Shown here one piece after another: positions 1 through 24,955 of a stretch of DNA of 64,000 nt. The translations under genes were made by a program, and so were the position numbers. Origin of the DNA: Gemmatimonadaceae bacterium (lineage in GTDB: Bacteria > Gemmatimonadota > Gemmatimonadetes > Gemmatimonadales > Gemmatimonadaceae); assembly GCA_035533755.1 (NCBI GenBank), contig DATLTC010000056.1, positions 1 to 64,000 on the forward strand. Reading direction: 5' to 3'. The notes beneath the pieces were generated by a model. That model was not told where the DNA came from. It saw nothing but the letters and a program-made list of their open reading frames with translations, and ran no database searches. The first letter of the stretch is position 1. Each line of letters opens with the position of its first letter.

Positions 1-1
1 T

Positions 2-1867: not shown

Positions 1868-1896
1868 CGTTATGCCTGGCGGTCGGGAGGTTGGCC

Positions 1897-5724: not shown

Positions 5725-5750
5725 CATAGGGCGCTCGCGCTACTCGATCA

Positions 5751-5790
5751 GACTGCCGGTCCGGGACGACGTGGTCCCGGACCGGCAGTC
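5751..5790. terminator. perfect 17-bp stem, bidirectional terminator
   Basis: The bases at 5751-5767 pair perfectly with 5774-5790 around a 6-base loop (GACGTG). The arms are GACTGCCGGTCCGGGAC and its complement. It lies between the convergent stops at 5724 and 5828. There is no strong T-run, so termination may rely on the very stable stem. Confidence 0.75.
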
Positions 5791-5796
5791 GCGTCT

Positions 5797-5825
5797 CCCC
5801 CCCGGCGCTCGCGACGCCTGGGGGG
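5797..5825. terminator. second G/C hairpin of the same termination region
   Basis: A C-run plus GGCG at 5798-5807 pairs with CGCC at 5815-5818 and a G-run at 5820-5825, with one bulged T. It directly follows the stop of the minus-strand peptidase gene and probably ends that transcript. Confidence 0.5.
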
Positions 5826-5827
5826 CA

Positions 5828-7327: not shown

Positions 7328-7425
7328 GGAGACCTCGGATTCCGGTTCGGTAGCGGGCGGGGAAGTATGCGGCCACCGGGGCGTCGTGCGCCAGACCGCC
7401 GGGCAGACTGTCGAATGCCCGGGCG

Positions 7426-7710
7426 TCAGCCCGCGCGCCAGAACCACACCGACCAGTCGTCGTCGTCGTGTGCTTCCATGTGATACACGAATCCACGCTC
7501 GGACAGCATCCCGATGAGCGGCACGGGCGCGAGCGTGGCTCGCAGGTGGAGCACGTCGGTGTTCGGCAACGCATCGACGGCGGCCATGATCTTCGAGAGC
7601 GGCTCGCGTCCCGATCGCAGGTCCTCGCGCACGTCCACCTCCGTCACCGGTGCGTTGGCCGGAAACTCGACGTACTCCCCGTTCGGCGTGACGGCGTATA
7701 TGCGACTCAT
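7426..7710 (-). CDS. DUF2249-domain protein
   Basis: This encodes 94 residues. The sequence has the DUF2249/TusA-like pattern: an acidic strand (VTEVDVREDLRSGREP), then DVLHLRATLAPVPLIGMLSERGFVYHMEA and a Trp-rich end (DDDDWSVWFWRAG). DUF2249 proteins occur next to nitric-oxide and denitrification genes and Fe-S repair genes, which fits this cluster; their exact reaction is not established. The start overlaps the stop of the upstream membrane-protein gene by four bases, so the two are translated together. Confidence 0.75.
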   Translation of the reverse strand: MSRIYAVTPNGEYVEFPANAPVTEVDVREDLRSGREPLSKIMAAVDALPNTDVLHLRATLAPVPLIGMLSERGFVYHMEAHDDDDWSVWFWRAG

Positions 7711-9041: not shown

Positions 9042-9101
9042 AGGTCGTCCAGTCCCGGGTTCAGTCCGGACGAATGATGGACACGCCGGCGGCCGCCGGG
9101 C

Positions 9102-9115
9102 GTGACGGTTGTCGC
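9102..9115 (-). promoter_or_regulatory. Crp/Fnr-type dyad upstream of the NnrS-like gene
   Basis: Read on the minus strand the site is GCGACAACCGTCAC. It has the Crp/Fnr half-site order with a 4-base spacer, matches the dyad at 9892-9905 in 13 of 14 bases and shares the following GC as well. It sits 61-74 bases upstream of the start codon at 9041, a usual position for activation. Confidence 0.6.
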
Positions 9116-9123
9116 AAAGCCGG

Positions 9124-9852
9124 CTAGCCGAAGTGGGGGCGCTCGCCGGGCCGTCCCAGGGTTCGCAGCTGCGCCAGGTCGGGAATGCGGATCCGCTTGC
9201 GGGTGAGCAACTCGATGACGCCCTTCTGCGACAGCTGCTTGAACGCCCGCGACACCGATTCGCGCGCCGTGCCGAGTTCGAACGACAACTCTTCTTGCGT
9301 GCGGTCGAGCACGATCTCCAGGCCCTCGGGCGTCTGCTTGCCACGCAGCTCGGCGCATTCCACCAGGTAGTTGGCGAGGCGGGCGGCGACGTCGCGGAAG
9401 GCCAACGTCTCGGTGACGTGCACGAGATGCCGGAGCCGCTTGCCCAATTCGTGGATCACGGCGCGCGCAACGTCGGGATCCTCGCGGTACAGCGCCTCGA
9501 ATTCAGCGCGGGGCACGAAGATCAGGCGCGATTCCACTTCGGTCACCGCCGACGCCGGGTACGGCCCTTCATCGAACAGGGGCAGTTCCGCCACCGGACG
9601 TCCGGGCCCCTCGCTCTGCAGCACCTGCTCGCGGCCGGTGGGGCTGGTTCTATAAATCTTCACGCGCCCCGAGGCGACGACGTACAGACCGCGGCATGCC
9701 TCGCCGGTGGAGAACAGCACGTGGCCGGCGGCGTAGGTGCGGACCACGCAGCGCGAGGCCAGCCGCGCCAGGGCGCGGTCGCCGAACGTGGCGAAGAGTG
9801 GAATCTGTTCGAGCACCTGCCTGATGTCCGCTGCGGAATTGTCCATGGGCAC
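9124..9852 (-). CDS. Crp/Fnr-family transcriptional regulator
   Basis: This encodes 242 residues. The N-terminal cyclic-nucleotide-type sensor domain spans about 10-125 (YAAGHVLFSTGEACRGLYVV). The dimerisation helix follows, and a winged HTH lies near 175-220 (TQEELSFELGTARESVSRAF). The recognition helix carries E-x-x-S-R as in FNR/DNR rather than the CRP pattern, predicting TGA-N6-TCA sites. There is no FNR-type Cys cluster, so oxygen sensing by Fe-S is unlikely; a DNR/NnrR-like NO sensor is plausible from context. Its own upstream region and that of the NnrS-like gene carry matching dyads. The start could also be 9846. Confidence 0.85.
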   Translation of the reverse strand: MPMDNSAADIRQVLEQIPLFATFGDRALARLASRCVVRTYAAGHVLFSTGEACRGLYVVASGRVKIYRTSPTGREQVLQSEGPGRPVAELPLFDEGPYPASAVTEVESRLIFVPRAEFEALYREDPDVARAVIHELGKRLRHLVHVTETLAFRDVAARLANYLVECAELRGKQTPEGLEIVLDRTQEELSFELGTARESVSRAFKQLSQKGVIELLTRKRIRIPDLAQLRTLGRPGERPHFG

Positions 9853-9891
9853 GGAGAGGGGTCAGCGGTGCGGGTGGGTGATCCGCCGGGT

Positions 9892-9905
9892 GTGACAACC
9901 GTCAC
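9892..9905 (+). promoter_or_regulatory. perfect Crp/Fnr-type dyad between regulator and nir cluster
   Basis: GTGAC-AACC-GTCAC is a perfect inverted repeat with TGA-N6-TCA spacing. It lies 40-53 bases upstream of the regulator start (minus strand) and about 150 bases upstream of the DUF542 gene at 10058 (plus strand). It could control either or both. Confidence 0.6.
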
Positions 9906-10057
9906 GCGACCGGCGCATCGTCGCTGCCAGCTTGCACGGGCGCTCAATGCCGGGCATATCAGGAACCAAAGCTAAGCATGCCGGCGGTATCGAGCGCAAG
10001 CGCTCGCCGGAAGGGCGCGATGACCGCGAGCCCGAACCATTGCCTGAGGTGCACACG

Positions 10058-10261
10058 ATGCAAGCTGCTCCCGCGCTGGACCCGGGGCGGACCGTGAACG
10101 AGTTGATCGCGCGCGATCCGCGCACGATCGCGGTGTTCAATCGCTTCGGGCTGGACACCTGCTGTGGGGGCGGCGATGCGATCGCCGAAGCCGCGAGCCG
10201 CGAGGGCGTGGACCTCGATGCGTTGCTCGCCGCGCTCCGCTCGGCCATGGCGGCGCCGTGA
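10058..10261 (+). CDS. DUF542 (ScdA N-terminal) domain protein
   Basis: This encodes 67 residues and consists of the short DUF542 domain alone: TVNELIARDPRTIAVFNRFG followed by LDTCCGGG. The paired Cys are the hallmark of the N-terminus of ScdA/YtfE di-iron proteins that repair Fe-S clusters after NO damage. The hemerythrin-like iron domain is absent, so this is a stand-alone version. I chose the ATG at 10058 because the domain begins just after it; a longer frame upstream is low-quality. The stop overlaps the next start by four bases. Confidence 0.8.
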   Translation: MQAAPALDPGRTVNELIARDPRTIAVFNRFGLDTCCGGGDAIAEAASREGVDLDALLAALRSAMAAP

Positions 10262-10593
10262 ACATCTACGATCCGGCGGCCCTGGCGGCCGAAGCCGTGG
10301 CGTCGCGGGCCGACCGACCGGCAACGGCGATCGTGCATGACGCGCCGGGCGCGCGCCTCGTCGTGTTCCGCATCGAGCCCGGCCAATCGGTGGCGCCGCA
10401 CACGAGCACGTCGACGGTGATCCTGTCGGTGATCGCGGGAACCGGCCTGGTGTCGGGTCCCGACGGGGAGCGCTCGGTGCGCGCTGGCGACATCGTGGCG
10501 TATGCGCCTGATGAGCGGCACGGCATGCGGGCGCTCGCGCAGGCGCTCGTCGTGATCGCCACCATCGCGCCGCGGCCGGGCGGCGGCTCCTGA
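10258..10593 (+). CDS. cupin-domain protein
   Basis: This encodes 111 residues with a GTG start overlapping the previous stop (GTGA). It is a small single-cupin beta-barrel: RLVVFRIEPGQSVAPHTSTS gives the first cupin motif with one His, and ERHGMRALAQALVVIATI gives the second. The metal set is incomplete compared with classical cupins (the second His of motif 1 is Thr or Ser), so metal binding is uncertain. Similar cupins often sit beside nitrite and NO genes. The function is not assignable beyond co-expression with DUF542 and nirK. Confidence 0.65.
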   Translation: MNIYDPAALAAEAVASRADRPATAIVHDAPGARLVVFRIEPGQSVAPHTSTSTVILSVIAGTGLVSGPDGERSVRAGDIVAYAPDERHGMRALAQALVVIATIAPRPGGGS

Positions 10594-10624
10594 GAAGGGG
10601 CGCGTTTGCGCACGGAGTCTGGCA

Positions 10625-11812
10625 ATGATCGGCACCTCGGACCTTCAACCCGGATTACGCATGAACGAATCCAACGATCGTCCCACTCCCCTCCGGCCGG
10701 CGGGCGGCGATCGCTCCACCGCGGCCTCGTCGTTCGAGGCGTCGAGCACCCGGCGTGCCTTCCTGCAACGCGCGTCGGTGCTGTCGCTGGCCCTTCCGGG
10801 CCTCGGAGCCGCGCTGGCCGCGTGCGGGCCAAACGCCAAGTCGGGCGGCACCGAATCGGCGGCCGCGCCAGGCGGAACGGGCGCGCCGGCCAATCCCGAT
10901 AGCAAACTCGATACGGCGCTCCATACGGGAGCGGCGGCGACGACGGCGCCGGGCGCCGGGGCGGCGTCGGTGGCCTACAAGCGGTTCGACCCCACGCTGC
11001 CGCCGCTGTCGGGCGAGCGGACGCTGCGGCTGCACTGGACGGCCCGCGCGGCGCCGATCCGCGTGTCGGACGACACGGTCGTGGCGGCGTGGACGTTCGA
11101 GGGCGACACGCCGGGCCCCATCGTACACTGTCGCGTGGGCGACACGGTGGAGGTCACGCTGACCAACGAAGCCGACATGCCCCATTCGATGGATTTCCAC
11201 GCGGCGCAGATCAACCCCAAGGTCGCGTTCCGGTCGGTGGCCAAGGGACAGTCGGTGACGTTCAGCTTCAAGCCGCGCTACGCCGGGGCGTTCATGTACC
11301 ATTGCGGCACGGCGCCGGTGCTGATGCATATCGGATCCGGTATGTACGGGGCGATCATCGTATCGCCCGCCGTGCCGCTCCCGCCGGCCAGGGAGTTCGT
11401 GCTCGTCGAGGGCGAGATGTACCTGGGGGCCGCGGTCAATGGCGTGCGGCCGTTCGACTACACCAAGATGCTGTCCACGCTGCCCGATCTCGTGGCGTTC
11501 AACGGGCGTCCGGACCAGTATGCCCGCGATCCGATCCATGTGAAGGTGGGCGATCGCGTGCGGTTCTGGGTGGTGAATGCGGGGCCCACCCATGCCTGCG
11601 CATTCCACGTCGTGGGGGAGCAGTTCGACACCGTGTACCTCGGAGCGCCGCCGGACAACGCCATTCACGGAGTCCAGACGTTCGAGGTGGCCGCGGGCGG
11701 GGGCATGGGCTTCGAACTCGTGTGCGACGTGCCGGGTGAATTCCCATTCGTGAATCATGCGTTCGGCCATGGCCAGAAGGGGGCGGTCGGATTTCTGGTG
11801 GTGGACGCGTGA
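10625..11812 (+). CDS. nirK: copper-containing nitrite reductase NirK, Tat lipoprotein
   Basis: This encodes 395 residues and reduces nitrite to nitric oxide. Two cupredoxin domains are present. Copper ligands are visible: type 1 and type 2 His flanking the catalytic Asp in MPHSMDFHAA, then type 2 His, type 1 Cys, His and Met in MYHCGTAPVLMHIGSGM. The second domain carries the catalytic and type 2 His (GPTHACAFH and VNHAFGHGQ). The N-terminus has a twin-arginine motif (RRAFLQ) and a lipobox (LAAC), then a low-complexity Ala/Gly/Thr linker of about 50 residues, so it looks like a membrane-anchored NirK. The start at 10625 has GGAG eight bases upstream; 10661 is possible. Confidence 0.93.
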   Translation: MIGTSDLQPGLRMNESNDRPTPLRPAGGDRSTAASSFEASSTRRAFLQRASVLSLALPGLGAALAACGPNAKSGGTESAAAPGGTGAPANPDSKLDTALHTGAAATTAPGAGAASVAYKRFDPTLPPLSGERTLRLHWTARAAPIRVSDDTVVAAWTFEGDTPGPIVHCRVGDTVEVTLTNEADMPHSMDFHAAQINPKVAFRSVAKGQSVTFSFKPRYAGAFMYHCGTAPVLMHIGSGMYGAIIVSPAVPLPPAREFVLVEGEMYLGAAVNGVRPFDYTKMLSTLPDLVAFNGRPDQYARDPIHVKVGDRVRFWVVNAGPTHACAFHVVGEQFDTVYLGAPPDNAIHGVQTFEVAAGGGMGFELVCDVPGEFPFVNHAFGHGQKGAVGFLVVDA

Positions 11813-11830
11813 GCGCGCGCTGAGCGGCCG

Positions 11831-12286
11831 GTGCACTCCCTCGTACGGCGCTATATCAAGACCGCGATCGGCTTCCTGATGGCGGGGCTGGCCATCGGCG
11901 GCTGGATGATCGTCCAGCGCGAGATCTGGCAGCAGTACCCGGGCCCGTACGAGGTGAGCGCCCACACGCACGCCATCTTCGTCGGGTTCGTGATGATGAT
12001 GATCATGGGGGTGGCGCTCTGGCTCTTTCCCAGGCCGGAGCGCGCCGATGCGCGTTACCGGCCGGCGCTGGCCGGCGCGGCGTACTGGTGCGTCACCGTG
12101 GGCACCGGGGCCCGCGTGCTGGCGGAACTGCTGCGCACCGTCGCCGGCGGAGGCTGGCTGCGGTGGACCGTGGTGGGCAGTGGGTTCCTGCAGATTGCCG
12201 GGCTGGCGATCTTCTTCCATACGATGTGGTCGCGCATTCGCGCCGTGGGGAGCCAGGCGCGCGAAGCCGCCGGCGAGCGCTTCTGA
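11831..12286 (+). CDS. small heme-copper-oxidase-I-like membrane protein
   Basis: This encodes 151 residues, starting at GTG 18 bases after nirK. Four membrane helices are predicted. The second helix contains SAHTHAIFVGFVMMMIMG, which resembles the heme-ligand helix of cbb3 oxidase or NO reductase subunit I (His in an aromatic/Gly helix). The last helix has FFHTMW. It is far too short for a catalytic subunit (about 450 residues), so it may be a heme-binding electron-transfer or assembly partner of NirK. The adjacency to nirK is direct evidence of co-expression; the heme idea is inference. Confidence 0.6.
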   Translation: MHSLVRRYIKTAIGFLMAGLAIGGWMIVQREIWQQYPGPYEVSAHTHAIFVGFVMMMIMGVALWLFPRPERADARYRPALAGAAYWCVTVGTGARVLAELLRTVAGGGWLRWTVVGSGFLQIAGLAIFFHTMWSRIRAVGSQAREAAGERF

Positions 12287-12414
12287 CTGCGAGGTGCATG
12301 GGCACCGCGTCAGGTATTCCCGGACGAATTGGCGGCGTTGTCCTGATACCAGAACTACGGGCGCCCTTCTAACTCTTTCGACACCGCTCCGCGCGCATCA
12401 GATTCGCGTGTCGA

Positions 12415-14469
12415 ATGCGGCTCTCAATGCCCATTTTCCGCCGCCCGCCGCGATCCACCGAACCCCGTCCACGCCCTGCGCCCATAGTGCCGCGCCTCGG
12501 CCTCGGTGCATCGGTGGCGATCGCCTTTGGCGTGGTGCTGGTGCTGGTATCGGCCGCCGAGCTGGTGGAGCGGCGATGGCTGGCCGGCGCCACCACGACC
12601 GATATGGGCGCGTTCCATCACCTGGTGGGGCTGGCCACATCGCTCGTCGCGGCGACGGTCGCGGCCTGGCTGGTCCTCCGGGGCATGCCATCGCTCTTCT
12701 CGGCAGACCTCGGCGACGACGATGGGATGGAGGGGCATCCGCTCACCGATGAGGAGCGCGACGTCCGGTTCGCGGAGTGGTTCATCCGCATGCGCTGGGT
12801 GGCGGTGCTCACGGCCACGCTGCTGGTGTTCGTCTCCGTGGACGTGATGGGCTATCTCGCGCCGGCGCTCTGGCGTCCGTTGGCGCTGTCGATCGGGGCG
12901 CTGGTGGCGCTGAACGTCACCTACACGGCGCTGCTGCGTGCGCGCACGGCCCCGGGTCCGCTGCTCAAGGTCCAGGCGTACGGCGATCTGGTCATCCTCA
13001 CGGCGTTGCTCCACTTCTCGGGCGGCATCGAGAATCCGCTCACCACGGTGCTGTCGTTTCACGTGATCATTGCCGGCATGGTGTTCGAGCGCCGGCAGAG
13101 TTACTACGTGGCCGCCGCGGCGAGCGCGCTGTTCACGCTGCTGGCGCTGGGCGAGCTCTCCCGGGTGATCCCCCACTATTCGCTCGCCATCCTCCCGAAC
13201 CTGGTCACGGGCGGCGCCCCCACGCAGGCCGCGTACGACAGCCAGTTCGTGTTCAGCCGCATTGCCCTGCACGTGGGCATGCTCTTCCTCACGGCGTACT
13301 TTGCCAGCACCGTGGCCGATCAGCTGCGGCGCGGGCGGCGCGGGATCGAACGGCTCGCCGATCGCGCCCTGTCGCAGAGCCAGTTGCTGGAACGGGCGCT
13401 CGAGACCACGGGCACGGCGCTCTACGTGTGCGACCGCGATGCGCAGGGCATGTGGCACAATCCCCGCTGGGACGCGCTGTTCGGCAGCGCCTTCCTGGCG
13501 CCGAGCGGCGACGACTCGCCGGGTCCGGACGTTTCCGCATCCCAGCTCCTCGTCGACGGCATGCAGCGCATCCGGGAGGTGCGCGTGCCGGCGCGCGCCG
13601 GGGCGGGTGACGCGGTCACCGATCGGGGCGAACGTACCTTCCTGCTCACCACCGCGCCGCTGGTGGATGCGCGCGGCGCGATCACGCACGTGGTGCAGCT
13701 GGCGCGCGAGATCACGGAGCAGAAGCGCATCCAGGCGCGGGTAGCGCGCTCCGAGCGGCTCGTGGCGGTGGGCGAACTGGCCGGACGCGTGGCGCACGAG
13801 GTGAACAATCCGGTGGCCATCATCAGCGCCAAGACCCGGCTCCTGCTCTCGGACCATCGCGACGGACTGTCCGCTCATGCCGCCGATGAACTGGTCAAGA
13901 TCACGGACCTCGCCGACCGGATCGCGCGCATCACGCAGGGCCTGCTGTCGTACTGCCGGCCGTCGGTTGGTCCGGCCAAGCCGGTGGATGTGCGCACGGT
14001 GGTGCGCCGGTCGCTGGCGATGGTGGAGCCGAGCGCACGGGTGGCGGGGGTGACCGTGGAGGAAGATCTGTCGGGCAGTTTGCCGCTGGTGCTCGTGAAC
14101 CCCGGCGAGATGGAGCAGGTATTCCTGAATCTGTTCGTCAATGCGTTGGATGCCATGCCACGGGGAGGCCGTCTGTCGGTATCCGCGAACGATGGCGGGC
14201 CCGCGCACCAGAGCGGGTTGCTTCATCTGGTGGTGGCGGATACCGGAAGCGGGATCCCGGCCGACATTCGCGAGCGGATCTTCGAGCCGTTCCTCACCAC
14301 GAAACCCGAGGGGCAGGGCACGGGACTCGGCCTCTCCATCTGCCTGGGGTTGGTGCGGGGCAACAAGGGGACGATCGAGATCGAGAGCGAGCCGGACCGG
14401 GGCACGCGGGTGCTGCTCGGGTTCCCGCTGGCCGGGCCCGTGGACGAAGCCCGGGCAGGCGCCGCATGA
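12415..14469 (+). CDS. membrane sensor histidine kinase, RegB-like redox motif
   Basis: This encodes 684 residues. Two N-terminal helices (about 25-85) and a six-helix bundle (about 125-305) are predicted; the bundle includes GGIENPL at 203-209, which matches the GGxxNPF quinone-sensing motif of RegB/PrrB. A PAS-like domain follows (about 325-440), then HisKA with the phospho-accepting His 461 (GRVAHEVNNP) and HATPase with the N box (NLFVNALDAM) and G boxes (DTGSGIP, GTGLGLS). It probably senses the redox state of the quinone pool. The stop overlaps the response-regulator start by four bases. An alternative start is the in-frame ATG at 12427. Confidence 0.9.
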   Translation: MRLSMPIFRRPPRSTEPRPRPAPIVPRLGLGASVAIAFGVVLVLVSAAELVERRWLAGATTTDMGAFHHLVGLATSLVAATVAAWLVLRGMPSLFSADLGDDDGMEGHPLTDEERDVRFAEWFIRMRWVAVLTATLLVFVSVDVMGYLAPALWRPLALSIGALVALNVTYTALLRARTAPGPLLKVQAYGDLVILTALLHFSGGIENPLTTVLSFHVIIAGMVFERRQSYYVAAAASALFTLLALGELSRVIPHYSLAILPNLVTGGAPTQAAYDSQFVFSRIALHVGMLFLTAYFASTVADQLRRGRRGIERLADRALSQSQLLERALETTGTALYVCDRDAQGMWHNPRWDALFGSAFLAPSGDDSPGPDVSASQLLVDGMQRIREVRVPARAGAGDAVTDRGERTFLLTTAPLVDARGAITHVVQLAREITEQKRIQARVARSERLVAVGELAGRVAHEVNNPVAIISAKTRLLLSDHRDGLSAHAADELVKITDLADRIARITQGLLSYCRPSVGPAKPVDVRTVVRRSLAMVEPSARVAGVTVEEDLSGSLPLVLVNPGEMEQVFLNLFVNALDAMPRGGRLSVSANDGGPAHQSGLLHLVVADTGSGIPADIRERIFEPFLTTKPEGQGTGLGLSICLGLVRGNKGTIEIESEPDRGTRVLLGFPLAGPVDEARAGAA

Positions 14470-15890
14470 CGACCGCGGCCATGCGCGTGCTGGTGGTGGA
14501 CGACGAGATCGGGATGCTGGAGGTGTGCCGCGATACCCTGCGCACCCTGGACCGCGTCGATGTCGAGGTGGAGTCGCACAGCGACCGCGCGGCGGCCAAG
14601 GTGGCGGACCAGTCGTGGGACCTGCTGATCACCGATGTCCGGATGCCGGGCGTCAGCGGCATCGAGCTGTTGGCCACCGCCCGCATGCACGATCCGGACC
14701 TGCCGGTGCTGATGCTCACCGCGTATCCCACGGTGGAGACGGCGGTGGACAGCATGAAGCTGGGCGCCACCGATTACATCGTGAAGCCGTTCATGCCCGA
14801 CGACCTGCGCGCCACGGTGCGGCGCATCCTCGACGGCCGGCGGTTGCGCGACGAGAATCAACTGCTGCTCGACCAGGTGGAGCGTGGGCACGCCTTCGGG
14901 GACATCGTGGGCTCCAGCGCGGCGATGCGGGCCGTGTTCGAGACCATCGACCGCGTGGCGGCCACCGATGTGGACGTGTTGATCACGGGGGAGACGGGCA
15001 CCGGCAAGGAGCTCGTGGCGCGCAGCATCCACCAGCGCAGCCGGCGGTCGGCCGGACATCTGGTGCCGATCGACTGCGGCGCGATCCCCGAGGATCTGCT
15101 GGAGAGCGAGTTCTTCGGGCACGAGCGTGGGGCGTTCACCGGGGCCGTGGGCCGCCGGCTCGGCCTCGTGGAATTCGCCGCCGGCGGCACGCTGTTTCTC
15201 GACGAGATCGATCACCTGCCCGCCAAGCTTCAGGCCAAGTTGCTGCGGGTGCTCCAGGAACGCCGGATCCGCCGCGTGGGCGGCACGCAGGAACTGGATG
15301 TGGATGTCCGGGTGGTGGCCGCGAGTTCGGCCGATCTGGAGCAGGACGTCCAGCGCCAGGCCTTCCGGGCGGACCTCTACTACCGCATCAACGTGGCCCG
15401 CATCAACATCCCGCCGCTGCGCGAACGGCCGGACGACATCGCGCCGTTGGTCGCGCATTTCGTGAACCGATACGCGCGGGAAATCGGTCGCGAATCGCTG
15501 CCCGTGGAGCCGGAGGCGGTGGAGGTGCTCATGGGCTACCGCTGGCCGGGCAACGTGCGCGAGTTGCAGAATGTCATCAAGCGCGCGTTGGTGTTCTGCC
15601 GCCGCGAGGCGATCCGCGTGGAGGACCTCCCCGACGAGGTGGTGGGGGCCGCGAGCACGCCGCCGGCCCAGAACGGGCAGGGGTACTTCACGCTGCGCGA
15701 GCAGCACAGCGCGGTGTTCGAGCGCGACTATCTCAAGGACCTGCTGCGCGTGCAGGGCGGCGACGTGGCGGGCGCGGCGGAGCACGCGCGCCTGCCGCGC
15801 GGCACGCTGTACCGGCTGCTCAAGAAGCACGGCATCAATCCCTCCGATTTCCGGGCCTCGACCGATCGCGGGCCCGTCGCGCCGGCGTGA
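14466..15890 (+). CDS. sigma-54-dependent NtrC-family response regulator
   Basis: This encodes 474 residues. The receiver spans 1-125 with the phosphorylatable Asp 57 (ITDVRMPG) and Lys in VKPF. The AAA+ domain spans about 145-385 with Walker A GETGTGKE (175-182), the sigma-54-contacting GAFTGA (222-227) and Walker B FLDEID. The C-terminus is a Fis-type HTH (GAAEHARLPRGTLYRLLKK). It forms a pair with the preceding kinase. It should activate sigma-54 promoters from upstream dyads; matching dyads and a -24/-12 promoter follow directly downstream of this gene, in front of the alternative complex III operon. Confidence 0.95.
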   Translation: MTTAAMRVLVVDDEIGMLEVCRDTLRTLDRVDVEVESHSDRAAAKVADQSWDLLITDVRMPGVSGIELLATARMHDPDLPVLMLTAYPTVETAVDSMKLGATDYIVKPFMPDDLRATVRRILDGRRLRDENQLLLDQVERGHAFGDIVGSSAAMRAVFETIDRVAATDVDVLITGETGTGKELVARSIHQRSRRSAGHLVPIDCGAIPEDLLESEFFGHERGAFTGAVGRRLGLVEFAAGGTLFLDEIDHLPAKLQAKLLRVLQERRIRRVGGTQELDVDVRVVAASSADLEQDVQRQAFRADLYYRINVARINIPPLRERPDDIAPLVAHFVNRYAREIGRESLPVEPEAVEVLMGYRWPGNVRELQNVIKRALVFCRREAIRVEDLPDEVVGAASTPPAQNGQGYFTLREQHSAVFERDYLKDLLRVQGGDVAGAAEHARLPRGTLYRLLKKHGINPSDFRASTDRGPVAPA

Positions 15891-15907
15891 ATCGCGGGCG
15901 TCGGATA

Positions 15908-15923
15908 TTCACACGCGCGTGAA
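15908..15923. promoter_or_regulatory. upstream activating dyad 1 (candidate)
   Basis: TTCAC-ACGCGC-GTGAA is a dyad with perfect 5-base arms and 6-base spacer, 17 bases after the response-regulator stop. It is nested in a larger stem (GCGGGCGT 15894-15901 with ACGCCCGC 15924-15931), so it could also form an RNA hairpin. It lies about 240 bases upstream of the sigma-54 promoter, a normal enhancer distance. Confidence 0.5.
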
Positions 15924-16019
15924 ACGCCCGCGCCGCCGACCAAGTCCATCCAAGTCAAGCAGTTAGGTACAGGGCGCGCCGCGCGCCGCGCGACGCGTCG
16001 CGCCGTCGGGCCCGCGCCT

Positions 16020-16035
16020 GTCACGCGCGTGTGAA
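16020..16035. promoter_or_regulatory. upstream activating dyad 2 (candidate)
   Basis: GTCAC-GCGCGT-GTGAA is, on the minus strand, identical to dyad 1 except for one end base (15 of 16). It lies about 112 bases from dyad 1 in opposite orientation and about 125 bases upstream of the sigma-54 promoter. Two copies fit cooperative binding of an NtrC-type dimer pair. Confidence 0.5.
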
Positions 16036-16145
16036 TTGCCCCCTCGCGTGAGGCTCGGGGCCCGCCACGCGCCAGAGGGCGTAACGCGTTGCCGTCACGC
16101 GTGCTACGTGCCTTCGCCTTGCCGGTGATGCTGCGTCCCGGTCTG

Positions 16146-16161
16146 CGGCACGCATCCTGCT
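16146..16161 (+). promoter_or_regulatory. sigma-54 (-24/-12) promoter of the alternative complex III operon
   Basis: CGGCACGCATCCTGCT fits the sigma-54 pattern GG-N10-GC exactly (GG 16147-16148, GC 16159-16160), with GGCACG in the -24 box and CTGCT in the -12 box. It is about 70 bases before the first operon gene and directly downstream of a sigma-54-activator gene. Confidence 0.6.
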
Positions 16162-16228
16162 TAAGAGGACGTTGATCGCGCCCGTTGAATGCGCGATCGC
16201 GGCAACGGCAACGCGAGGGAAGGAAGCG

Positions 16229-16618
16229 ATGGACACCACAACCCTGTTGGTGATCAGTCCGTCGACTGACCTCGGCGCATCGCTCAGGCAGCTCCTTCCG
16301 CCAAGCCGGTTCGACGTGGTTCACATGTTGCCGGGGGCGGGTCTGCTGCAGGGATTGCGCCGCATCCGGCCGCGCATTGCGGTGGTCGATTGCATCGACC
16401 ACCGACCGGAAGCGGCGCAGTTGGAAATCGCGCTGATCAAGGAGATGTACCCGGAGGCGCAGATCATCGCGGTCAGCGCGAATTCGTCCGCGGCGGATGT
16501 GTTCGTGATCGAGCAGGGCCTGTTCTGTTACGTCGCGGCGCCGGAGGACGATGAACTGGTGCGGATCATCCACGCGGCGTTTCGGGTGGCCGATGCCGGG
16601 GCGGCGACGAAGCTGTGA
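16229..16618 (+). CDS. degenerate receiver-domain protein
   Basis: This encodes 129 residues and has the alternating beta/alpha pattern of a response-regulator receiver: LLVISPS (strand 1), IAVVDCID (strand 3, with Asp at the usual phosphorylation place), IIAVSAN (strand 4) and CYVAAPEDDEL (strand 5). The acidic pair after strand 1 and the conserved Lys before Pro in strand 5 are missing, so normal phosphorylation is doubtful. There is no output domain. It is the first gene after the sigma-54 promoter. The RBS GGGAAGGAAG precedes the ATG at 16229. A role as an adaptor or phosphate sink is inference. Confidence 0.65.
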   Translation: MDTTTLLVISPSTDLGASLRQLLPPSRFDVVHMLPGAGLLQGLRRIRPRIAVVDCIDHRPEAAQLEIALIKEMYPEAQIIAVSANSSAADVFVIEQGLFCYVAAPEDDELVRIIHAAFRVADAGAATKL

Positions 16619-16668
16619 GGATGGTCGGTTGGTGGAGCATGGCGTCACATCCAAGAGGAGGCATATCG

Positions 16669-17118
16669 ATGTCTGGCATTCGCAGGATGACGGCCCTCGC
16701 GGCGCGCGGCGTGGCCGCGTGCACGGTCCTCGCCGTGATCGGAGGGTTGGCGGCGTCGCCGGCGGCGGCGCAGGAATCGAGCAACGCGTCGGTGTGGGTG
16801 GCGCCGGAAGAGCCGGCGCATCAGCCGAATCCCGTTGCCGTAACCAATGACGCCGTGGCTCGGGGGCGCGGGTTGTTCCGCGCCAACTGTGAGATGTGCC
16901 ATGGGCAGCACGGGCGGGGCGACGGGCAGATCGCGGCGTCGCTACCCGTGCATCCGGCGGATCTCACGTCGGATCGCGTGCAGTCGCAGACGGACGGCGC
17001 GCTGTTCTGGAAGATCACCGAGGGCCGGGGCCCGATGCCGAGCGCGCGGTCCACGCTGACGCCGGCCGGCCGGTGGGCGGTGATCGACTACATCAGAAGT
17101 CTCAAGGCCAACAAGTAG
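16669..17118 (+). CDS. secreted monoheme cytochrome c
   Basis: This encodes 149 residues. The signal peptide ends in ASPAAAQ. One c-heme site, CEMCH, is followed by GQHGRGDG and a distal Met in GPMPSA, the pattern of class I cytochromes related to ActE and to the alternative complex III operon. The RBS AAGAGGAGG is 9 bases before the ATG at 16669. It probably accepts electrons from alternative complex III or links it to an oxidase. It is the second gene of the sigma-54-led operon. Confidence 0.85.
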   Translation: MSGIRRMTALAARGVAACTVLAVIGGLAASPAAAQESSNASVWVAPEEPAHQPNPVAVTNDAVARGRGLFRANCEMCHGQHGRGDGQIAASLPVHPADLTSDRVQSQTDGALFWKITEGRGPMPSARSTLTPAGRWAVIDYIRSLKANK

Positions 17119-17181
17119 GAACCGCGCTGCGCCGTGCGAACGACGCCGCAGCGCGCCACACCTGGCGGCAGGAGATCCAAC

Positions 17182-17385
17182 ATGGGAGCCGCAGCGCTGG
17201 TCATCATCTTGGCGGGCATGGTGGTACCGATCACGCTCGTGCTGGCGACGCTCGCGTTCGATCTCGGCGTCCTGGTCTGGGTGCTGCACCGGTGGTGGAA
17301 GGATCATGGGCGCACGTGGCTGCTCGGGCCGCATGGCCGGAGACGGGCCGGCGCCGGCGTTGTGCGAACGGTGGAACTGCGGTGA
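17182..17385 (+). CDS. small one-helix membrane protein of the ACIII operon
   Basis: This encodes 67 residues. One long hydrophobic segment (about residues 4-35, containing VIILAGMVVPITLVLATLAF) is followed by a basic tail rich in Arg and Trp (LHRWWKDHGRTW). An RBS (GGCAGGAG) precedes the ATG at 17182. It sits between the cytochrome gene and actA. I do not recognise a family. Its place and shape suggest a small structural subunit or assembly factor. Confidence 0.55.
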   Translation: MGAAALVIILAGMVVPITLVLATLAFDLGVLVWVLHRWWKDHGRTWLLGPHGRRRAGAGVVRTVELR

Positions 17386-17510
17386 GGATGCGTGAAATGG
17401 AACGTGTGAACAGGCGATGGTGCTCACCGATGGCGGCGCCGCGGGGACGGACATCCCACGGCGCGTGTTCAGCGACTTGTCCGTGGCGTTCTTGTCTGGG
17501 GGTCCGGTAA

Positions 17511-18080
17511 GTGCATCCGCGCGATCGATTCTGGCGTGTCGTCGTTCCGGCGGGCGTGGTCCTCGTCGTCAGCACCATGGTGACGGTGGGATGGATCACG
17601 CAGCCCGCGCGCTTCGTGCTCGGCTACGCGCCGGCGCAGCCCATCCCGTTCTCGCACAAGGTGCATGCCGGCACGAATCGCATTCCGTGCGAGTACTGCC
17701 ACACGAATGCCGATCGCAGCCGCGCCGCCACCGTGCCCGCGGTCCAGACGTGCATGAACTGCCACCGGTTCATCACGATGCCCGACAGCAACTACATCAC
17801 CAAGGATGTCGTGGCCCGACTGGCATCGGATCGTGCCATGCTGTGGAAGCGGGTCTATGACCTGCCGGACCATGCGTACTTCGACCACCGCGCGCACGTG
17901 AACGTGGGCGTCCAGTGCCAGACCTGCCACGGTGCCGTTCAGAACATGGACGTCGTGTCCCGCGTCATGAACATGCGGATGGGACAGTGCCTGGCCTGCC
18001 ATCGGGATCCGCGCCCGTACCTGCCGCCGACCTCTGCCATCAAGCAGGGACCGACGGATTGCACCGCTTGTCACCGATAA
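17511..18080 (+). CDS. actA: ActA-like pentaheme cytochrome c of alternative complex III
   Basis: This encodes 189 residues. An N-terminal membrane anchor or signal (about 10-30) is followed by five CxxCH sites: CEYCH at 60-64, then CMNCH, CQTCH, CLACH and CTACH. Five c-hemes in a short periplasmic protein upstream of a molybdopterin-like ActB is the signature of ActA. It passes electrons from the iron-sulfur subunit out to cytochrome c. The start is GTG at 17511; the Shine-Dalgarno sequence is weak. The protein lies within the alternative complex III operon. Confidence 0.9.
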   Translation: MHPRDRFWRVVVPAGVVLVVSTMVTVGWITQPARFVLGYAPAQPIPFSHKVHAGTNRIPCEYCHTNADRSRAATVPAVQTCMNCHRFITMPDSNYITKDVVARLASDRAMLWKRVYDLPDHAYFDHRAHVNVGVQCQTCHGAVQNMDVVSRVMNMRMGQCLACHRDPRPYLPPTSAIKQGPTDCTACHR

Positions 18081-18099
18081 TCGGATAGAGGAGCACGAT

Positions 18100-18303
18100 A
18101 TGATGGTGAGGAGTCGCCGCCAAGCTGTGGTCGAGATCGCCGCGACCGTTGGCGCTGTCCTGGTGAGTGCGTCCGTACTCGGCCGCCTGCTTCCGTGGAA
18201 GAACCGACCGGCCAAGCCGGGTCGTCTCCCGCGCGGGGGGACGTCCGCCGAGCGGGCCCGCCGAGTGCAACCGGACCCGTTCGCGGTGAAACGCCATGGA
18301 TAA
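18100..18303 (+). CDS. small basic one-helix protein between actA and actB
   Basis: This encodes 67 residues, starting at 18100 (or 18103) with AGAGGAG seven bases upstream. There is one short hydrophobic helix (about 9-30, VVEIAATVGAVLVSASVLG), then a basic Pro/Arg-rich tail ending QPDPFAVKRHG. Its stop overlaps the start of actB by eight bases, so it is translationally coupled. No standard alternative complex III subunit corresponds to it that I recognise. It may be a lineage-specific accessory subunit. Confidence 0.55.
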   Translation: MMVRSRRQAVVEIAATVGAVLVSASVLGRLLPWKNRPAKPGRLPRGGTSAERARRVQPDPFAVKRHG

Positions 18304-21259
18304 GCGGCCGGAGTTCGCGCCGGGCGCCCTCACGCCCGTCGAGCCGCCCTCCGAACGGGAGCCGCTGTCCCGTCGGCGCTTCCTGAGCCTGATCGGCGCC
18401 TCCGCGGCGCTGGCCGCCACGGTCGGATGCGAGCCGGCGGACAAGGACACGATCGTGCCGTACACCAGGAAGCCCGACGAGGTCATTCCCGGTGTTGCCA
18501 ACTATTACGCCAGCACGTATCAGGAAGGACTCATCGCGTACGGCGTGCTCGTGAAGGCGCGTGAAGGGCGGCCCATCCACATCCAGGGCAACGACGAGCA
18601 TCCCATCTTCAAGGGGAAGACGTCGCTCAGGGCGCAGGCGGAGATCATCGGCCTGTACAATCCCGGGCGCCTCCGCGAGCCCCGTGTGGCGGGCAAGGCG
18701 GCCAGCTGGAAGGACGCCGACGCCCGCGTCGTGCCGGCGCTCAAGAGCGCCGCGGCCTCGGGGAAGCCTGTGCTGCTCCTCACGCCGGCCGTGGTCTCGC
18801 CCACGCGCCGGGCCGTGCTCAACGACCTGCGGAAAGCGCTGCCCGGACTCCAGCACGTGGCGTGGGAGCCGGCCCTCGGCCTGGCCGACCTCACGGCGTC
18901 CGCGGCGCTGTACGGCGACGCCGTGGTGCCCCAGTATCGCATCGAGCGGGCCTCCGTGATCGCGGCGTTCGAGACGGATTTTCTCGGCACCGCCGGGAAC
19001 GCCGTTCCGGCCATCGCGGGGTTCACGGAACATCGGAAGCTGGCCAAGCCTGGCGACCCGATGAACCGGCTCTACGCGTTCGAGAGCTGCCTGAGCATCA
19101 CCGGCAGCAAGGCCGACGTACGCGTTCCGCTCCGGCCGTCCGGCGCGGCGCCGATCGCGTTCGCGATTGCGAAGGCCCTCCGCGACAGGCACGGCCTCAA
19201 GGTTCCCGCCGGGCTCGCGGGCGATACGCTCGCGCCGTTCAGCATCGAGGCCCTGGCCAAGGAGTACGGGGTCGATGCCGCGGCGCTCTCGTCGCTCGTC
19301 GATGACCTGGCAGCGGCGGGCGCCGGCAGCCTCGTCATGGCCGGCCCATCGCTGCCGATGGAAGCGCACGCGGCGGTGGCGCTGCTCAACACCATGCTCG
19401 GCGCGGAGGGCCATACCGTGGATACCACCTACTCCGCCGATGCGGCATCCGTGGCCACGCCGTTGGAGATGGCGCAGGTGACGCGGGACATGGCCTCGGG
19501 CCATTTCGCCGCCGCCGTTTTCTGGGATGTGAATCCCTCGCATGCCATGGCGGACGCCGACGCGTTCAACGCCGCCCTGGCCCACGTGCCGCTGAAGGTC
19601 CGCCTCGGTCTCGAGGAAGACGAGACCGCGGGGCGATGCGACGTGGTGCTCCCGATCAACCACTGGCTGGAGAGCTGGAACGACTTCGAACCGTCCACCG
19701 ACCTGCTGAGTCTGCAACAGCCGCTCATCCGGCCGCTCTACGACTCGCGGCAGGCCGAGGAGATTCTCCTCGGATGGGCGAACGCCCTGGGCGGGCCGGC
19801 GTCCACCGACTACCGCGCGTACCTGATGACGCGGTGGCAACACGAGGTCTACGCCAAGGGGACGCCCGCGAATTTCGAGCAGTATTGGGCGGCGGCCGTG
19901 CATGACGGGGTGCTGCAGCGCGGGGCCACGGCGCGCCCTCCGCGCACGCTTCGCGCGGCCGCGGTGACCGATGCGGCCAGGAAGGCGGCCGCCGCGACGC
20001 GCTCCGCCGGCATGGAGTTGATCATCGCGCCCGATGTCCGGATGTGGGACGGCCGATACGCCAACATCGGCTGGTTGCAGGAGCTGCCGGACCCCGTCTC
20101 GAAGGTCTGTTGGGGAAACTATCTGGCGGTATCCGGCGCCGATGCCAAGACGTTGAATGTCTCGGATGGCGACCTGGTGTCGGTCGAAGCCGGCGCGCGG
20201 AAGGTTCGTCTTCCCGTGCTGGTGCAGCCCGGGCAGGCCCAGGGCGCGGTGTTCGCGGTGCTCGGCCATGGCCGGGAGGGCGGCGTGGCGGGCGGGCGCG
20301 GGGCCAATGTCTTTCCCCTCGTGGCGGATGACGGGTCGACGCCCTTCTTCCGTCCGAACGCGCGGGTGACGCGGGTGGCCGGCCACGAGCCGCTGGTCCG
20401 CACGCAGCATCACTTTTCGTCGCACGACCGCGACATCGTGCGGATCTGGTCGCTCGATGAATACAAGAAGCAGGCCGCGCTGCCCGACGACGCGGGGGAG
20501 CTGGCGACCCTGAACAAGAATCAGGAGTGGCCGGATCACAAGTGGGGCATGACCATCGACCTGTCGGCGTGCGTGGGGTGCGGGGGATGCGAGATCGCCT
20601 GCCAGTCGGAGAACAACATTCCCGTGGTCGGCCCCGAGCAGGTGGCGCGCGGCCGGACCATGCACTGGATCCGGGGCGATGTGTACTACCTCGGCGCCGA
20701 CGAGAATCCGCAGGTGGGTCACGTGCCGATGCTGTGCCAGCAGTGCGACGACGCGCCGTGCGAGCCCGTCTGCCCCGTGTCCGCCACGGTGCACAGCGAC
20801 GACGGCTTGAACGAACAGGCGTACAACCGGTGCATCGGCGTCCGCTACTGCGCCGCCAACTGCCCGTACATGGTGCGGCGGTTCAATTTCTTCGATCTGA
20901 CCAGTTTCATCACGGATCCACTGGACCTCGCGTTCAATCCCGAGGTGACCGTCCGTCCGCGCGGCGTGATGGAGAAGTGCACGTTCTGCGTGCAGCGCAT
21001 CCGCAACGGCGTGCAGGTGGCCAAGGACGAAGGCCATCCGGTGCGCGACGGCGACATCGCGCCGGCGTGCGCGGTGGCGTGCCCGGCCAATGCGATCGTG
21101 TTCGGCGATCTGAAGGACGTGAACAGCCGCGTCTCGATGCTGTCCCGGAGCAACCGCGGGTTCAAGGTTCTCGAGCAATTGGGAACGCGGCCGGCGATCA
21201 CCTACCTGGCCGATCTGAAGAATCCGGCCCAACCGCAGAAGACGAATGACCATGTCTGA
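18296..21259 (+). CDS. actB: ActB, molybdopterin-like and iron-sulfur subunit of alternative complex III
   Basis: This encodes 987 residues. A Tat-type N-terminus (RRRFLSLIG) leads into a molybdopterin-oxidoreductase-like domain (about 60-740). A ferredoxin domain follows (from residue 759) with CVGCGGCEIAC, CQQCDDAPCEPVC, CIGVRYCAANCPY and CTFCVQRIRN clusters, enough for three [4Fe-4S] and one [3Fe-4S]-type cluster. In the family, the molybdopterin-like domain holds no Mo cofactor. It oxidises quinol together with ActC and sends electrons to ActA. The start overlaps the upstream small gene and its end overlaps actC by 14 bases. Confidence 0.95.
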   Translation: MDKRPEFAPGALTPVEPPSEREPLSRRRFLSLIGASAALAATVGCEPADKDTIVPYTRKPDEVIPGVANYYASTYQEGLIAYGVLVKAREGRPIHIQGNDEHPIFKGKTSLRAQAEIIGLYNPGRLREPRVAGKAASWKDADARVVPALKSAAASGKPVLLLTPAVVSPTRRAVLNDLRKALPGLQHVAWEPALGLADLTASAALYGDAVVPQYRIERASVIAAFETDFLGTAGNAVPAIAGFTEHRKLAKPGDPMNRLYAFESCLSITGSKADVRVPLRPSGAAPIAFAIAKALRDRHGLKVPAGLAGDTLAPFSIEALAKEYGVDAAALSSLVDDLAAAGAGSLVMAGPSLPMEAHAAVALLNTMLGAEGHTVDTTYSADAASVATPLEMAQVTRDMASGHFAAAVFWDVNPSHAMADADAFNAALAHVPLKVRLGLEEDETAGRCDVVLPINHWLESWNDFEPSTDLLSLQQPLIRPLYDSRQAEEILLGWANALGGPASTDYRAYLMTRWQHEVYAKGTPANFEQYWAAAVHDGVLQRGATARPPRTLRAAAVTDAARKAAAATRSAGMELIIAPDVRMWDGRYANIGWLQELPDPVSKVCWGNYLAVSGADAKTLNVSDGDLVSVEAGARKVRLPVLVQPGQAQGAVFAVLGHGREGGVAGGRGANVFPLVADDGSTPFFRPNARVTRVAGHEPLVRTQHHFSSHDRDIVRIWSLDEYKKQAALPDDAGELATLNKNQEWPDHKWGMTIDLSACVGCGGCEIACQSENNIPVVGPEQVARGRTMHWIRGDVYYLGADENPQVGHVPMLCQQCDDAPCEPVCPVSATVHSDDGLNEQAYNRCIGVRYCAANCPYMVRRFNFFDLTSFITDPLDLAFNPEVTVRPRGVMEKCTFCVQRIRNGVQVAKDEGHPVRDGDIAPACAVACPANAIVFGDLKDVNSRVSMLSRSNRGFKVLEQLGTRPAITYLADLKNPAQPQKTNDHV

Positions 21260-22637
21260 GGCCACCCTCCCGGTATCGCTGCGCATCGCACCCCTGGTCG
21301 AAGGCGACGTTTCGCTTGGCGGCCTCGACGACCACGTCCGGTACTGGAGCGAGGCGCCCCCGCCCAGATCCTGGTACATCGCCATCACGATCACCGGCCT
21401 GGTGGCGCTCATGGGCTTCGCCGCGATCGGCTACATGCTGTACACCGGCATTGGCGTGATCGGGAACAACGTGCCCGTGGTCTGGGGCTTCCTGATCATC
21501 AACTTCGTGTTCTGGGTGGGCATCGGCCACGCCGGCACGTTGATCTCGGTCATCCTCTATCTGTTCCGGCAGCGGTGGCGCAACGCGATCAGCCGCATCG
21601 CCGAGGCCACGACCGTGTTCGCGTTCGTCTGCGCGATGATCTTTCCGGCCATCCACATCGGCCGGCCCTGGTTGCCGTACTGGCTGCTGCCGTACCCCAA
21701 TCAGCGGGGGATGTGGGTGAACTTCCGATCGCCGCTGATCTGGGACGTGTTCGCGGTGATGACGTACTTCATCGTGTCGCTCATGTTCTGGTATCTGGGG
21801 CTGGTCCCCGATTTCGCCACGTTGCGCGGCACCGCCACGAGCAGGGTCAAGCGGGCGGTGTTCAGGCTGCTCAGCTGGGGGTGGGTGGGCAATGCCCGGC
21901 AGTGGGTCCACTACGAGAAGGGGTACCTCCTGCTGGCTGGCATGACCACGGTCCTGGCCCTGAGCGTGCACAGCATCGTGTCGATGGACTTCGCCGTGTC
22001 GATGGTGCCCGGCTGGCACATGACGATCTTCCCGCCGTACTTCGTGGTGGGAGCGGCCTTCTCCGGGTTCGCGGGGGTCGTGCTCGTGTTCGCGTTCGTG
22101 CGCACGGCCATGAAGTTGGAGAACTACGTCACCCCCCGGCACATGGACCTCCTGAACCGGATGGTCCTGTTCCTGTCCTGCGTCATGGCGTACGCGTACC
22201 TCATGGAGGGCTTCACGGCCTGGTACAGCTCCGACACCTTCGTCAGGTACGTCTTCGCCAACTACGTGTTCGGCAAGGGCTGGTGGGCGGGCTGGCTGAC
22301 GATCACGCTCAACTGCGTGCTGCCGCAGCTGCTCTGGTTCCCCAGATTCCGCCGGTCCGTGCCGGTCATGGTGTTGGTGTCGTCCGGGGTGACGCTCGGC
22401 ATGTGGATGGAGCGGTATACCATCGTCATCCTGTCGTTGCAGCGCGACTATCTGCCGTCTTCGTGGGGCAGCTATCTCCCGACGCGGTACGACTTCGCCA
22501 TTCTCTTCGGCTCGATCGGCCTGTTCCTGACGCTTCTGCTGCTGTTCCTGCGCAAGTTGCCGATCATCGCGGCGTGGGAAGTGAAGCCCGACATCGTGTA
22601 TTACCAGAAGCAGCGCGCGGGGGCCGAACATGTCTGA
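21246..22637 (+). CDS. actC: ActC, NrfD-like quinol-binding membrane subunit
   Basis: This encodes 463 residues with about ten membrane helices. Family features are visible: GHAGTLISVILYLFRQRWR near the quinol pocket, FPAIHIGRPW and GWHMTIFPPYFVVGAAFSG. Members of the NrfD/PsrC family bind quinol in the membrane and carry no cofactor. The start at 21246 overlaps the actB stop by 14 bases; the ATG at 21252 is an equally good start. The stop overlaps the next gene by eight bases. Confidence 0.95.
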   Translation: MTMSEATLPVSLRIAPLVEGDVSLGGLDDHVRYWSEAPPPRSWYIAITITGLVALMGFAAIGYMLYTGIGVIGNNVPVVWGFLIINFVFWVGIGHAGTLISVILYLFRQRWRNAISRIAEATTVFAFVCAMIFPAIHIGRPWLPYWLLPYPNQRGMWVNFRSPLIWDVFAVMTYFIVSLMFWYLGLVPDFATLRGTATSRVKRAVFRLLSWGWVGNARQWVHYEKGYLLLAGMTTVLALSVHSIVSMDFAVSMVPGWHMTIFPPYFVVGAAFSGFAGVVLVFAFVRTAMKLENYVTPRHMDLLNRMVLFLSCVMAYAYLMEGFTAWYSSDTFVRYVFANYVFGKGWWAGWLTITLNCVLPQLLWFPRFRRSVPVMVLVSSGVTLGMWMERYTIVILSLQRDYLPSSWGSYLPTRYDFAILFGSIGLFLTLLLLFLRKLPIIAAWEVKPDIVYYQKQRAGAEHV

Positions 22638-23760
22638 TTCCGTATTCGGCGTGCTGGGGCTGTTCGGCAGCGCGGACGAACTGCTGGCGGCGATCCCGAA
22701 GATCAAGGCCAAGGGCTTCGCCAAGCTGGAGGCGTACACCCCCTATCCGGTGCACGGGATCGACGAGGCGCTGGACCTGCCCAAGTCGAAGCTGGGCGTC
22801 CTGGTGTTCCTGATCGGGAGCCTGGCGTGCATCTCGGCATTCACGTTCGAGTGGTGGACCAGCACCAGAGGGTATCCGCTGCGCACCGGCGGGAAGCCGT
22901 TCAACGGGTGGCAGGGCTGGGTGCTGGTGATGGTGGAAGCGACCATCCTGCTGTCGACGTTCACCGCCGGCATCGGGATGCTGTTCGCCTTCAACAAGCT
23001 GCCGTTCTTCGGCAACCCGATGCTGGAGAGCAAGGCCATCACGAGCATCACGCGCGACCGGTTCGCGCTGGTGCTGGTTCCGGTGGGCGGCACGCTGGAT
23101 GTGGAAGGGGCCGCCGGCGCGCTGCGCGCGGCGGGCGCCGAGTCCATCGAAGTGGTTCGCGTCCCCGAAGAGACGAAGCCTGGGTTGGCGTGGTGGGCGA
23201 GGACCGGCGTCGCGATCGCCGCCGCGTGTGCGGTGGCCGGCGTGGGCACGGCGTGGGTGATCCGTGCCTTTCCCACGATCAAGCCGATGGTCAACATGCA
23301 GGTGCAGCCCAAGCTCAACGCGCAGTCGGCGGACGCGTTCTTCGCCAACGGGCGCGGCATGCAACTGCCTCCGATCGGGACCGTGGCGCGCGGGTACATG
23401 CCGGTGGTCGATACGACGCCCGACGCGGCGGGAACGAATCTTTTCAACCCGTTGCCGGTCACGGCGCAGGTGCTGACGCGCGGACGCGAGATGTTCAATC
23501 TGCACTGCGCCGTCTGCCACGATCGCCTCGGAACGGGCAAGCCGTGGCTCGACAGCACGTACCATGCGATGCCGGTGGATCTGCAGTCGGCGCCGATGCG
23601 CGCCGCGCCCGACGGCTTCCTGTACTGGGTGATCTCGCAGGGCATCCGCACCATGCCGGGCTACGCGGCCGACATCTCGCAGGACGACCGGTGGGCCGTG
23701 GTGCGCTACATCCGGGCGCTCCAACGCTCGCAGGACGCGACGAAGGGGGATCTGAAATGA
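22630..23760 (+). CDS. actDE: ActD-ActE fusion: DUF3341 plus monoheme cytochrome c
   Basis: This encodes 376 residues. The N-terminal part (about 1-170, FGSADELLAAIPKIKAKGF and two membrane helices) is the DUF3341 subunit ActD. A further helix (about 195-215) leads into a cytochrome c domain with the heme site CAVCH at 293-297 and distal Met in TMPGYA, equivalent to ActE. In many organisms these are two genes. Here one frame covers both without a break. The start overlaps actC, the stop overlaps actF by four bases. Confidence 0.9.
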   Translation: MSDSVFGVLGLFGSADELLAAIPKIKAKGFAKLEAYTPYPVHGIDEALDLPKSKLGVLVFLIGSLACISAFTFEWWTSTRGYPLRTGGKPFNGWQGWVLVMVEATILLSTFTAGIGMLFAFNKLPFFGNPMLESKAITSITRDRFALVLVPVGGTLDVEGAAGALRAAGAESIEVVRVPEETKPGLAWWARTGVAIAAACAVAGVGTAWVIRAFPTIKPMVNMQVQPKLNAQSADAFFANGRGMQLPPIGTVARGYMPVVDTTPDAAGTNLFNPLPVTAQVLTRGREMFNLHCAVCHDRLGTGKPWLDSTYHAMPVDLQSAPMRAAPDGFLYWVISQGIRTMPGYAADISQDDRWAVVRYIRALQRSQDATKGDLK

Positions 23761-24944: not shown

Positions 24945-24955
24945 AGGAATAGCGA

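Follow-up and report, generated by a model that had tools for sequence, protein, structure and literature searches.

A predicted sigma-54 promoter and two-component system upstream of a second alternative complex III operon in a Gemmatimonadaceae bacterium

Alternative complex III (ACIII) is generally regarded as a permanent part of the respiratory chain. Sigma-54 control of a respiratory enzyme is familiar from the NiFe hydrogenases, where it is exerted through HupR/HoxA. A limited literature search returned no paper linking ACIII to sigma-54 control, and the nearest precedents are the Ohc electron-transfer complex of Desulfovibrio, which is under the control of DVU3142 (PMC4641369), and the hydrogenase genes, which belong to the sigma-54 regulon (PMC12316311). 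The locus described here lies in the window, by which we mean the whole 64,000-nucleotide (64-kb) stretch of Gemmatimonadaceae DNA analysed. As in the Ohc case, a predicted sigma-54 activator adjoins a membrane cytochrome complex and both promoter and operator are conserved; DVU3142, however, is a one-component activator with a divergent gene and no sensor kinase, and its complex is other than ACIII. As with the hydrogenases, an activator would regulate a respiratory oxidoreductase, and at locus L041 an ortholog of the window's activator stands, together with operators and promoter, before a NiFe hydrogenase, whereas the orthologous activator here also serves non-hydrogenase modules. Like described Act operons, the window operon contains ActA, ActB, ActC, ActD/E and ActF, but it is a second copy, preceded by a receiver gene, a cytochrome gene and a regulatory cassette. 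The best explanation of the locus as a whole, to which we give a probability of roughly 0.75, is that a self-contained sigma-54 cassette has been installed before a second, accessory ACIII operon.

The first gene of the regulatory pair (12415-14469; all genes of the locus, and the promoter, are on the forward strand) encodes a membrane histidine kinase with a 6-TM PilS/RegB-like sensor, the sequence FSGGIENPL, and PAS, HisKA and HATPase domains (Pfam PF25323, PF08448, PF00512, PF02518), the HisKA score of 25.8 bits being slightly below the cut-off of 26.9. The pair resembles the RegB/RegA systems (PrrBA, ActSR, RoxSR) in having a sensor with a GGxxNP element and in its respiratory targets. It differs in that its output is an NtrC/sigma-54 activator, not RegA, in its AtoS-like transmitter, and in its fit to the NCBIfam ActS/PrrB/RegB model NF033792, which aligns to kinase residues 114-268 with 84.8 bits against a curated cut-off of 350. 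With a score so far under the cut-off the kinase is, by sequence, not a member of the RegB/PrrB/ActS family, and it matches a PilS-like 6-TM model too. The GGXXNPF heptapeptide of RegB binds coenzyme Q1, as cited in PMC10525716. The kinase's GGIENPL agrees with it at 4/5 fixed positions, the last being L instead of F; GGxxNP is present in seven of the nine aligned kinase orthologs, and the remaining two have GSxxNP and GGxxNL. At the position taken by eye as equivalent to the RegB redox cysteine, in an alignment that contains no RegB sequence, the kinase has no cysteine, and a later one (LLSYCRP) is not common to all aligned orthologs.

The second gene (14466-15890) encodes an NtrC-type response regulator and sigma-54 activator, assigned from Pfam matches, alignment and tree, with a REC domain, an AAA+ domain (Sigma54_activat) and a Fis-type helix-turn-helix (HTH_8, 21.0 bits, a little under the cut-off of 22). 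In the ortholog alignment the GAFTGA loop is intact and the helix-turn-helix conserved; the recognition-helix region PRGT(L/F/M)YRL is common to the regulators of the clade and differs in the outlier L048. Both flanking genes thus carry the features that an earlier note on this DNA had read from the sequence, a kinase with GGIENPL and an activator with intact GAFTGA. In its binding sites the locus resembles QseF/GlrR, the two-component sigma-54 activator that controls glmY in enterobacteria. GlrR sites are TGTC-N10-GACA (PMC4987338), a pattern contained in the palindrome TGTCAC-N6-GTGACA found at this locus; the window regulator nevertheless scores far under the curated NCBIfam cut-off for the GlrR/QseF family (326 vs 763 bits), and the target here is a respiratory operon.

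Between the regulator gene and the next gene lies the GG-N10-GC element that the earlier note had proposed, CGGCACGCATCCTGCT at 16146-16161, with a gene start 68 nt downstream of the element and a predicted transcription start near 16172. It matches 10/12 informative positions of the -24/-12 consensus TGGCACG-N4-TTGCW. On a 12-position score whose weights are our approximation of the consensus, it shares the top rank among the window's 1672 GG-N10-GC matches, both strands counted. Its p value is 0.004 when the interval from regulator to gene is shuffled on its own, and 0.002 with random same-strand windows as control. Because a loose search is not enriched over shuffles (44 GG-N10-GC patterns with ≤2 mismatches seen vs 57 expected), the motif is weak on its own; we therefore used position and conservation instead, and these two bear the case. 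The genome also encodes sigma-54 itself (rpoN, G000:C9:268948-270402, 427 bits). Directly after the predicted start, at 16174-16198, is a perfect 8-bp inverted repeat, GATCGCGC...GCGCGATC, which is not conserved in most relatives. A 5' leader hairpin in the window and in G349 was considered as an element and rejected, being unconserved and no more stable than shuffles.

The same interval holds two palindromes that are absent from the earlier note and that we predict to be upstream activator sites: ATTCACACGCGCGTGAAA at 15907-15924, a TCAC-N6-GTGA palindrome matching 9/12 positions of the consensus TGTCAC-N6-GTGACA, and TGTCACGCGCGTGTGAAT at 16019-16036, which matches 10/12 and is the top match of the whole window. 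Behind orthologous regulators in Verrucomicrobiota and gammaproteobacterial loci the palindrome takes the form TGTCAC-N6-GTGA(C/A), in 2-3 copies per locus. It is found in 5/5 Gemmatimonadota loci, each at the lowest p value that 1000 shuffles can give (0.001); these p values depend on a consensus drawn by inspecting the loci. The cleanest statement of the sequence comparison is that the non-Gemmatimonadota loci display the consensus and the Gemmatimonadota loci satisfy it. The strict form TCAC-N6-GTGA occurs 20 times in the bacterium's own genome and, among the sites examined, only the window's two lie between annotated-type genes upstream of a 10/12 sigma-54 site. Neither the strict sites examined, which were those with loci out of the 20, nor a genome-wide count of the relaxed palindrome, which stayed at background (21 vs 22 in the control), turned up a wider regulon. 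Since the strict sites examined single out the window pair and the relaxed form does not exceed background, the comparison suggests that the regulator has one target in this genome.

Conservation of these elements follows the regulator. Regulator orthologs form a supported clade (100/99), monophyletic across Gemmatimonadota, Verrucomicrobiota, Planctomycetota, Pseudomonadota and Nitrospinota, in which the window regulator is sister to that of G349 (100/99); in a sample of 395 genomes of the phylum, only four others encode the regulator at E ≤ 1e-125. Where orthologous regulators occur in Gemmatimonadota, Verrucomicrobiota and Proteobacteria, the 2-3 palindromes behind them are nearly always followed by a -24/-12 element, and operators and promoter recur together in five Gemmatimonadota loci. 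At L041 the palindromes precede TGGCAAGGCGATTGCT (11/12), about 150 bp upstream of the NiFe hydrogenase small subunit gene. The Nitrospinota locus L036 has a perfect -24/-12 promoter behind its ortholog, but without a palindrome. In L035, also Gemmatimonadota, an unrelated divergent gene lies behind the regulator, and three palindromes with a candidate promoter stand instead before the receiver gene; taken singly, the promoter scores of L035 and L116 are weak (p about 0.1). Fisher combination over 13 loci treated as independent, two distant relatives (L048 and L050) included, gives p = 3e-12 for the promoter and 3e-19 for the palindromes, which by the shuffle test on these 13 loci were not found in L036 and L050. 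The promoter value is conservative, because only 400 bp were covered in L041 and the TGGCAAGGCGATTGCT site found afterwards lay outside them.

We weighed whether 16146-16161 is a chance GG-N10-GC in GC-rich DNA, with the regulator working elsewhere. The loose pattern, no commoner than in shuffles, fits such a reading; the interval-specific p value, the conserved position in orthologous loci, the operator palindromes in the same interval and above all the conservation across phyla, which argues strongly against it, make it highly improbable. The element is very probably a sigma-54 promoter with a dedicated activator, as the retention of motif and operators behind orthologous regulators in several phyla indicates, and the earlier note's proposal that the adjoining two-component system runs it gains support.

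That note had also suggested looking for the motif before actA operons of related genomes, where it does not generally recur: 15 other ACIII operons (14 in the phylum and the genome's own second) are without it, G331 being a weak exception. The motif as a general feature upstream of ACIII operons was therefore rejected; its conservation follows the regulator cassette. What stands downstream varies: receiver, FeS protein, NrfD-like protein and cytochrome c in G349; FeS and NrfD in G040; receiver, multiheme cytochromes and molybdopterin oxidoreductase in G355; NiFe hydrogenase in L041; and a porin-like protein with cytochromes c in L039. Outside the window, modules were named from heme motifs, from reading the sequences and from likeness to window proteins, not from family searches. 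From these comparisons the regulatory unit is a cassette (kinase, activator, operators, promoter and usually a degenerate receiver), not an ACIII-specific regulator. More tentatively, at just under an even chance, it may be a transferable "respiratory module switch", comprising a kinase with a quinone-type motif, an NtrC-type activator, operators, a sigma-54 promoter and, in most Gemmatimonadota loci, the receiver as first product, that has crossed between phyla and come to stand upstream of unrelated quinone-linked modules; here the FeS/NrfD pair of the sister cassette is absent and the second ACIII lies downstream, and the receiver would feed back on kinase or activator. In L036 a different, short receiver-like protein occupies the receiver position, and downstream of its gene (L036:6647-7421) is a second kinase fragment, with segments 62% and 50% identical, that looks like a partial duplication.

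The first operon gene in the window (16229-16618) encodes a stand-alone, degenerate receiver-like protein with orthologs in G349, G355 and L035 and with no Pfam or NCBIfam match. Its AlphaFold model (pLDDT 78, residues 86-105 of low confidence) has response-regulator receivers as best PDB matches (2qxy, E = 4e-4, probability 1.0); the N-terminal acidic pair is missing, and the aspartate D54 is invariant in four orthologs. A monoheme cytochrome c follows (16669-17118; PF13442/PF00034), which is 53% identical to the cytochrome ending the G349 cassette and for that reason is part of the cassette, not of ACIII. The gap to actA is filled by a small hydrophobic open frame of 67 aa (17182-17385), a predicted membrane protein with no Pfam match. 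Then come the ACIII genes in order: pentaheme cytochrome c ActA (17511-18080; five CxxCH, PF14522), ActB with molybdopterin-oxidoreductase-like and FeS domains fused (18296-21259; Pfam, NCBIfam QrcB/QrcC regions), NrfD-like ActC (21246-22637; PF03916), an ActD-ActE fusion (22630-23760; PF11821 ActD plus a cytochrome c domain) and ActF (23757-24944), the last assigned by position and by similarity only, at 26-83% identity to ActF of other ACIII operons. A further cytochrome c gene behind them (24956-25870; Pfam) is kept in orthologous operons. By its gene content this is an alternative complex III operon, with predicted quinol:cytochrome c (or oxidase) oxidoreductase activity. The earlier note's placement of the motif just before ActA-F needs correcting: the first three open frames just described lie between the promoter and actA.

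Whether the promoter reads through into ACIII turns on the DNA around actA. From 16229 to 25870 every gene is co-directional and gaps are short; no sigma-70-like promoter or terminator was recognised in 15880-18300, and no good sigma-54 site directly before actA (p = 0.22). We infer that read-through from the sigma-54 promoter is likely. It could instead be that a genuine sigma-54 promoter, under a genuine two-component system, serves only the receiver, the cytochrome c and the small membrane protein, with ACIII having its own promoter near 17386-17510. The 125 bp between the small open frame and actA leave room for an unrecognised promoter, the cytochrome belongs with the cassette rather than with ACIII, and the orthologous operons of G001, G002 and G331 begin with actA, which there has an upstream region of its own. 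Such a separate promoter is nonetheless unlikely, given the continuous co-directional genes and the lack of a recognisable site or terminator, and given that the window's actA shows no detectable similarity to G002 or G001 until its start codon is reached.

This boundary also bears on how the arrangement arose. Orthologs of the window's ACIII occur in G002 (78%), G001 (72%) and G331 (69%), with no regulatory cassette and no receiver or cytochrome gene in front. In G002, of the same genus, only 246 bp separate actA from a gene matching window 1-1869 at 93%; the window has 15.6 kb (1870-17510) between the counterparts of this pair, and similarity resumes exactly at the actA start (17511). Because the abutting gene sits at window 1-1869 and similarity starts exactly at actA, the native actA promoter has been replaced or lost. 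Insertion in the window lineage and deletion in G002 both fit the difference; insertion is the simpler reading in view of the G331 and G001 arrangements (the G001 contig begins just upstream). The GC content of the 15.6-kb segment is not foreign. The genome's other ACIII is on contig C100 (G000:C100:120274-123381, L138) and has diverged, with 34-51% identity in matched ActB stretches; since it lacks the regulatory unit, the regulated window ACIII is an accessory copy.

We propose that a redox or respiratory signal is sensed by the kinase, whose RegB-like GGIENPL may read the state of the quinone pool, and that the kinase then phosphorylates the NtrC-type regulator. The phosphorylated regulator would bind the two palindromes, which lie some 135-265 bp before the predicted start, and remodel the sigma-54 polymerase waiting at 16146-16161. 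Transcription from near 16172 would then pass through the receiver-like gene, the cytochrome c gene and the small membrane protein gene into ACIII genes that have lost their native upstream region, and the receiver-like first product may feed back on kinase or activator. Sequence comparison shows the domains, the operators, the promoter and their conservation, the relatives' arrangement without a cassette and the extra ACIII copy; phosphorylation, binding, read-through and the signal are deduced from these. The stretch directly before the kinase gene (window 7707-12286) may be a cluster for nitrite/NO respiration: it encodes a Crp/Fnr regulator and, beside two COX1-like proteins, a Cu protein resembling NirK.

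Quinone sensing is plausible: GGxxNP is kept in most kinase orthologs although these are attached to unrelated redox modules, which argues for a general membrane redox signal. An account that departs from ours in the signal alone has an appreciable chance, somewhat below even: the kinase would sense something else (candidates being NO, nitrite, oxygen and periplasmic redox), and this ACIII copy would serve nitrite/NO respiration with the neighbouring NirK-like protein. The upstream cluster, the PAS domain and the missed RegB family cut-off speak for it; retention of GGxxNP does not, and the Cu protein falls under the nitrite reductase cut-off (161 vs 296 bits). With this sensor, the idea that a quinone signal may act through a sigma-54 activator in place of RegA can be put to the test. 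Because a possibly transferable regulatory unit stands before a second ACIII copy, the cell probably makes part of its respiratory chain when needed rather than constantly. If so, these bacteria would select complex III function in response to a signal, as happens with hydrogenases and nitrogenase. The operator consensus also lets targets of the regulator clade be predicted across phyla.

Other ACIII operons show upstream elements of their own. The C100 copy, the housekeeping ACIII, lacks a sigma-54 element, and directly before its actA is a Crp-like site, TGTGAATTCGTTCACA; a TCAC-N6-GTGA there (G000:C100:124228) was rejected as an operator, having no sigma-54 site behind it and overlapping the Crp-like TGTGA-N6-TCACA. 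In G331 a sigma-54-like site, TGGTATGGCGATTGCT (L172:11209-11224; p = 0.008 in about 16 tests), lies 61 bp before the orthologous, cassette-free actA and would suggest independent sigma-54 control of that ACIII. The actA upstream regions of G001 and G002 have in common the imperfect palindromes TTGCGTAACACGTCAA and TTACGTGACATGTAA (L171:594-660, L170:1950-2010), perhaps a Crp/Fnr-type site.
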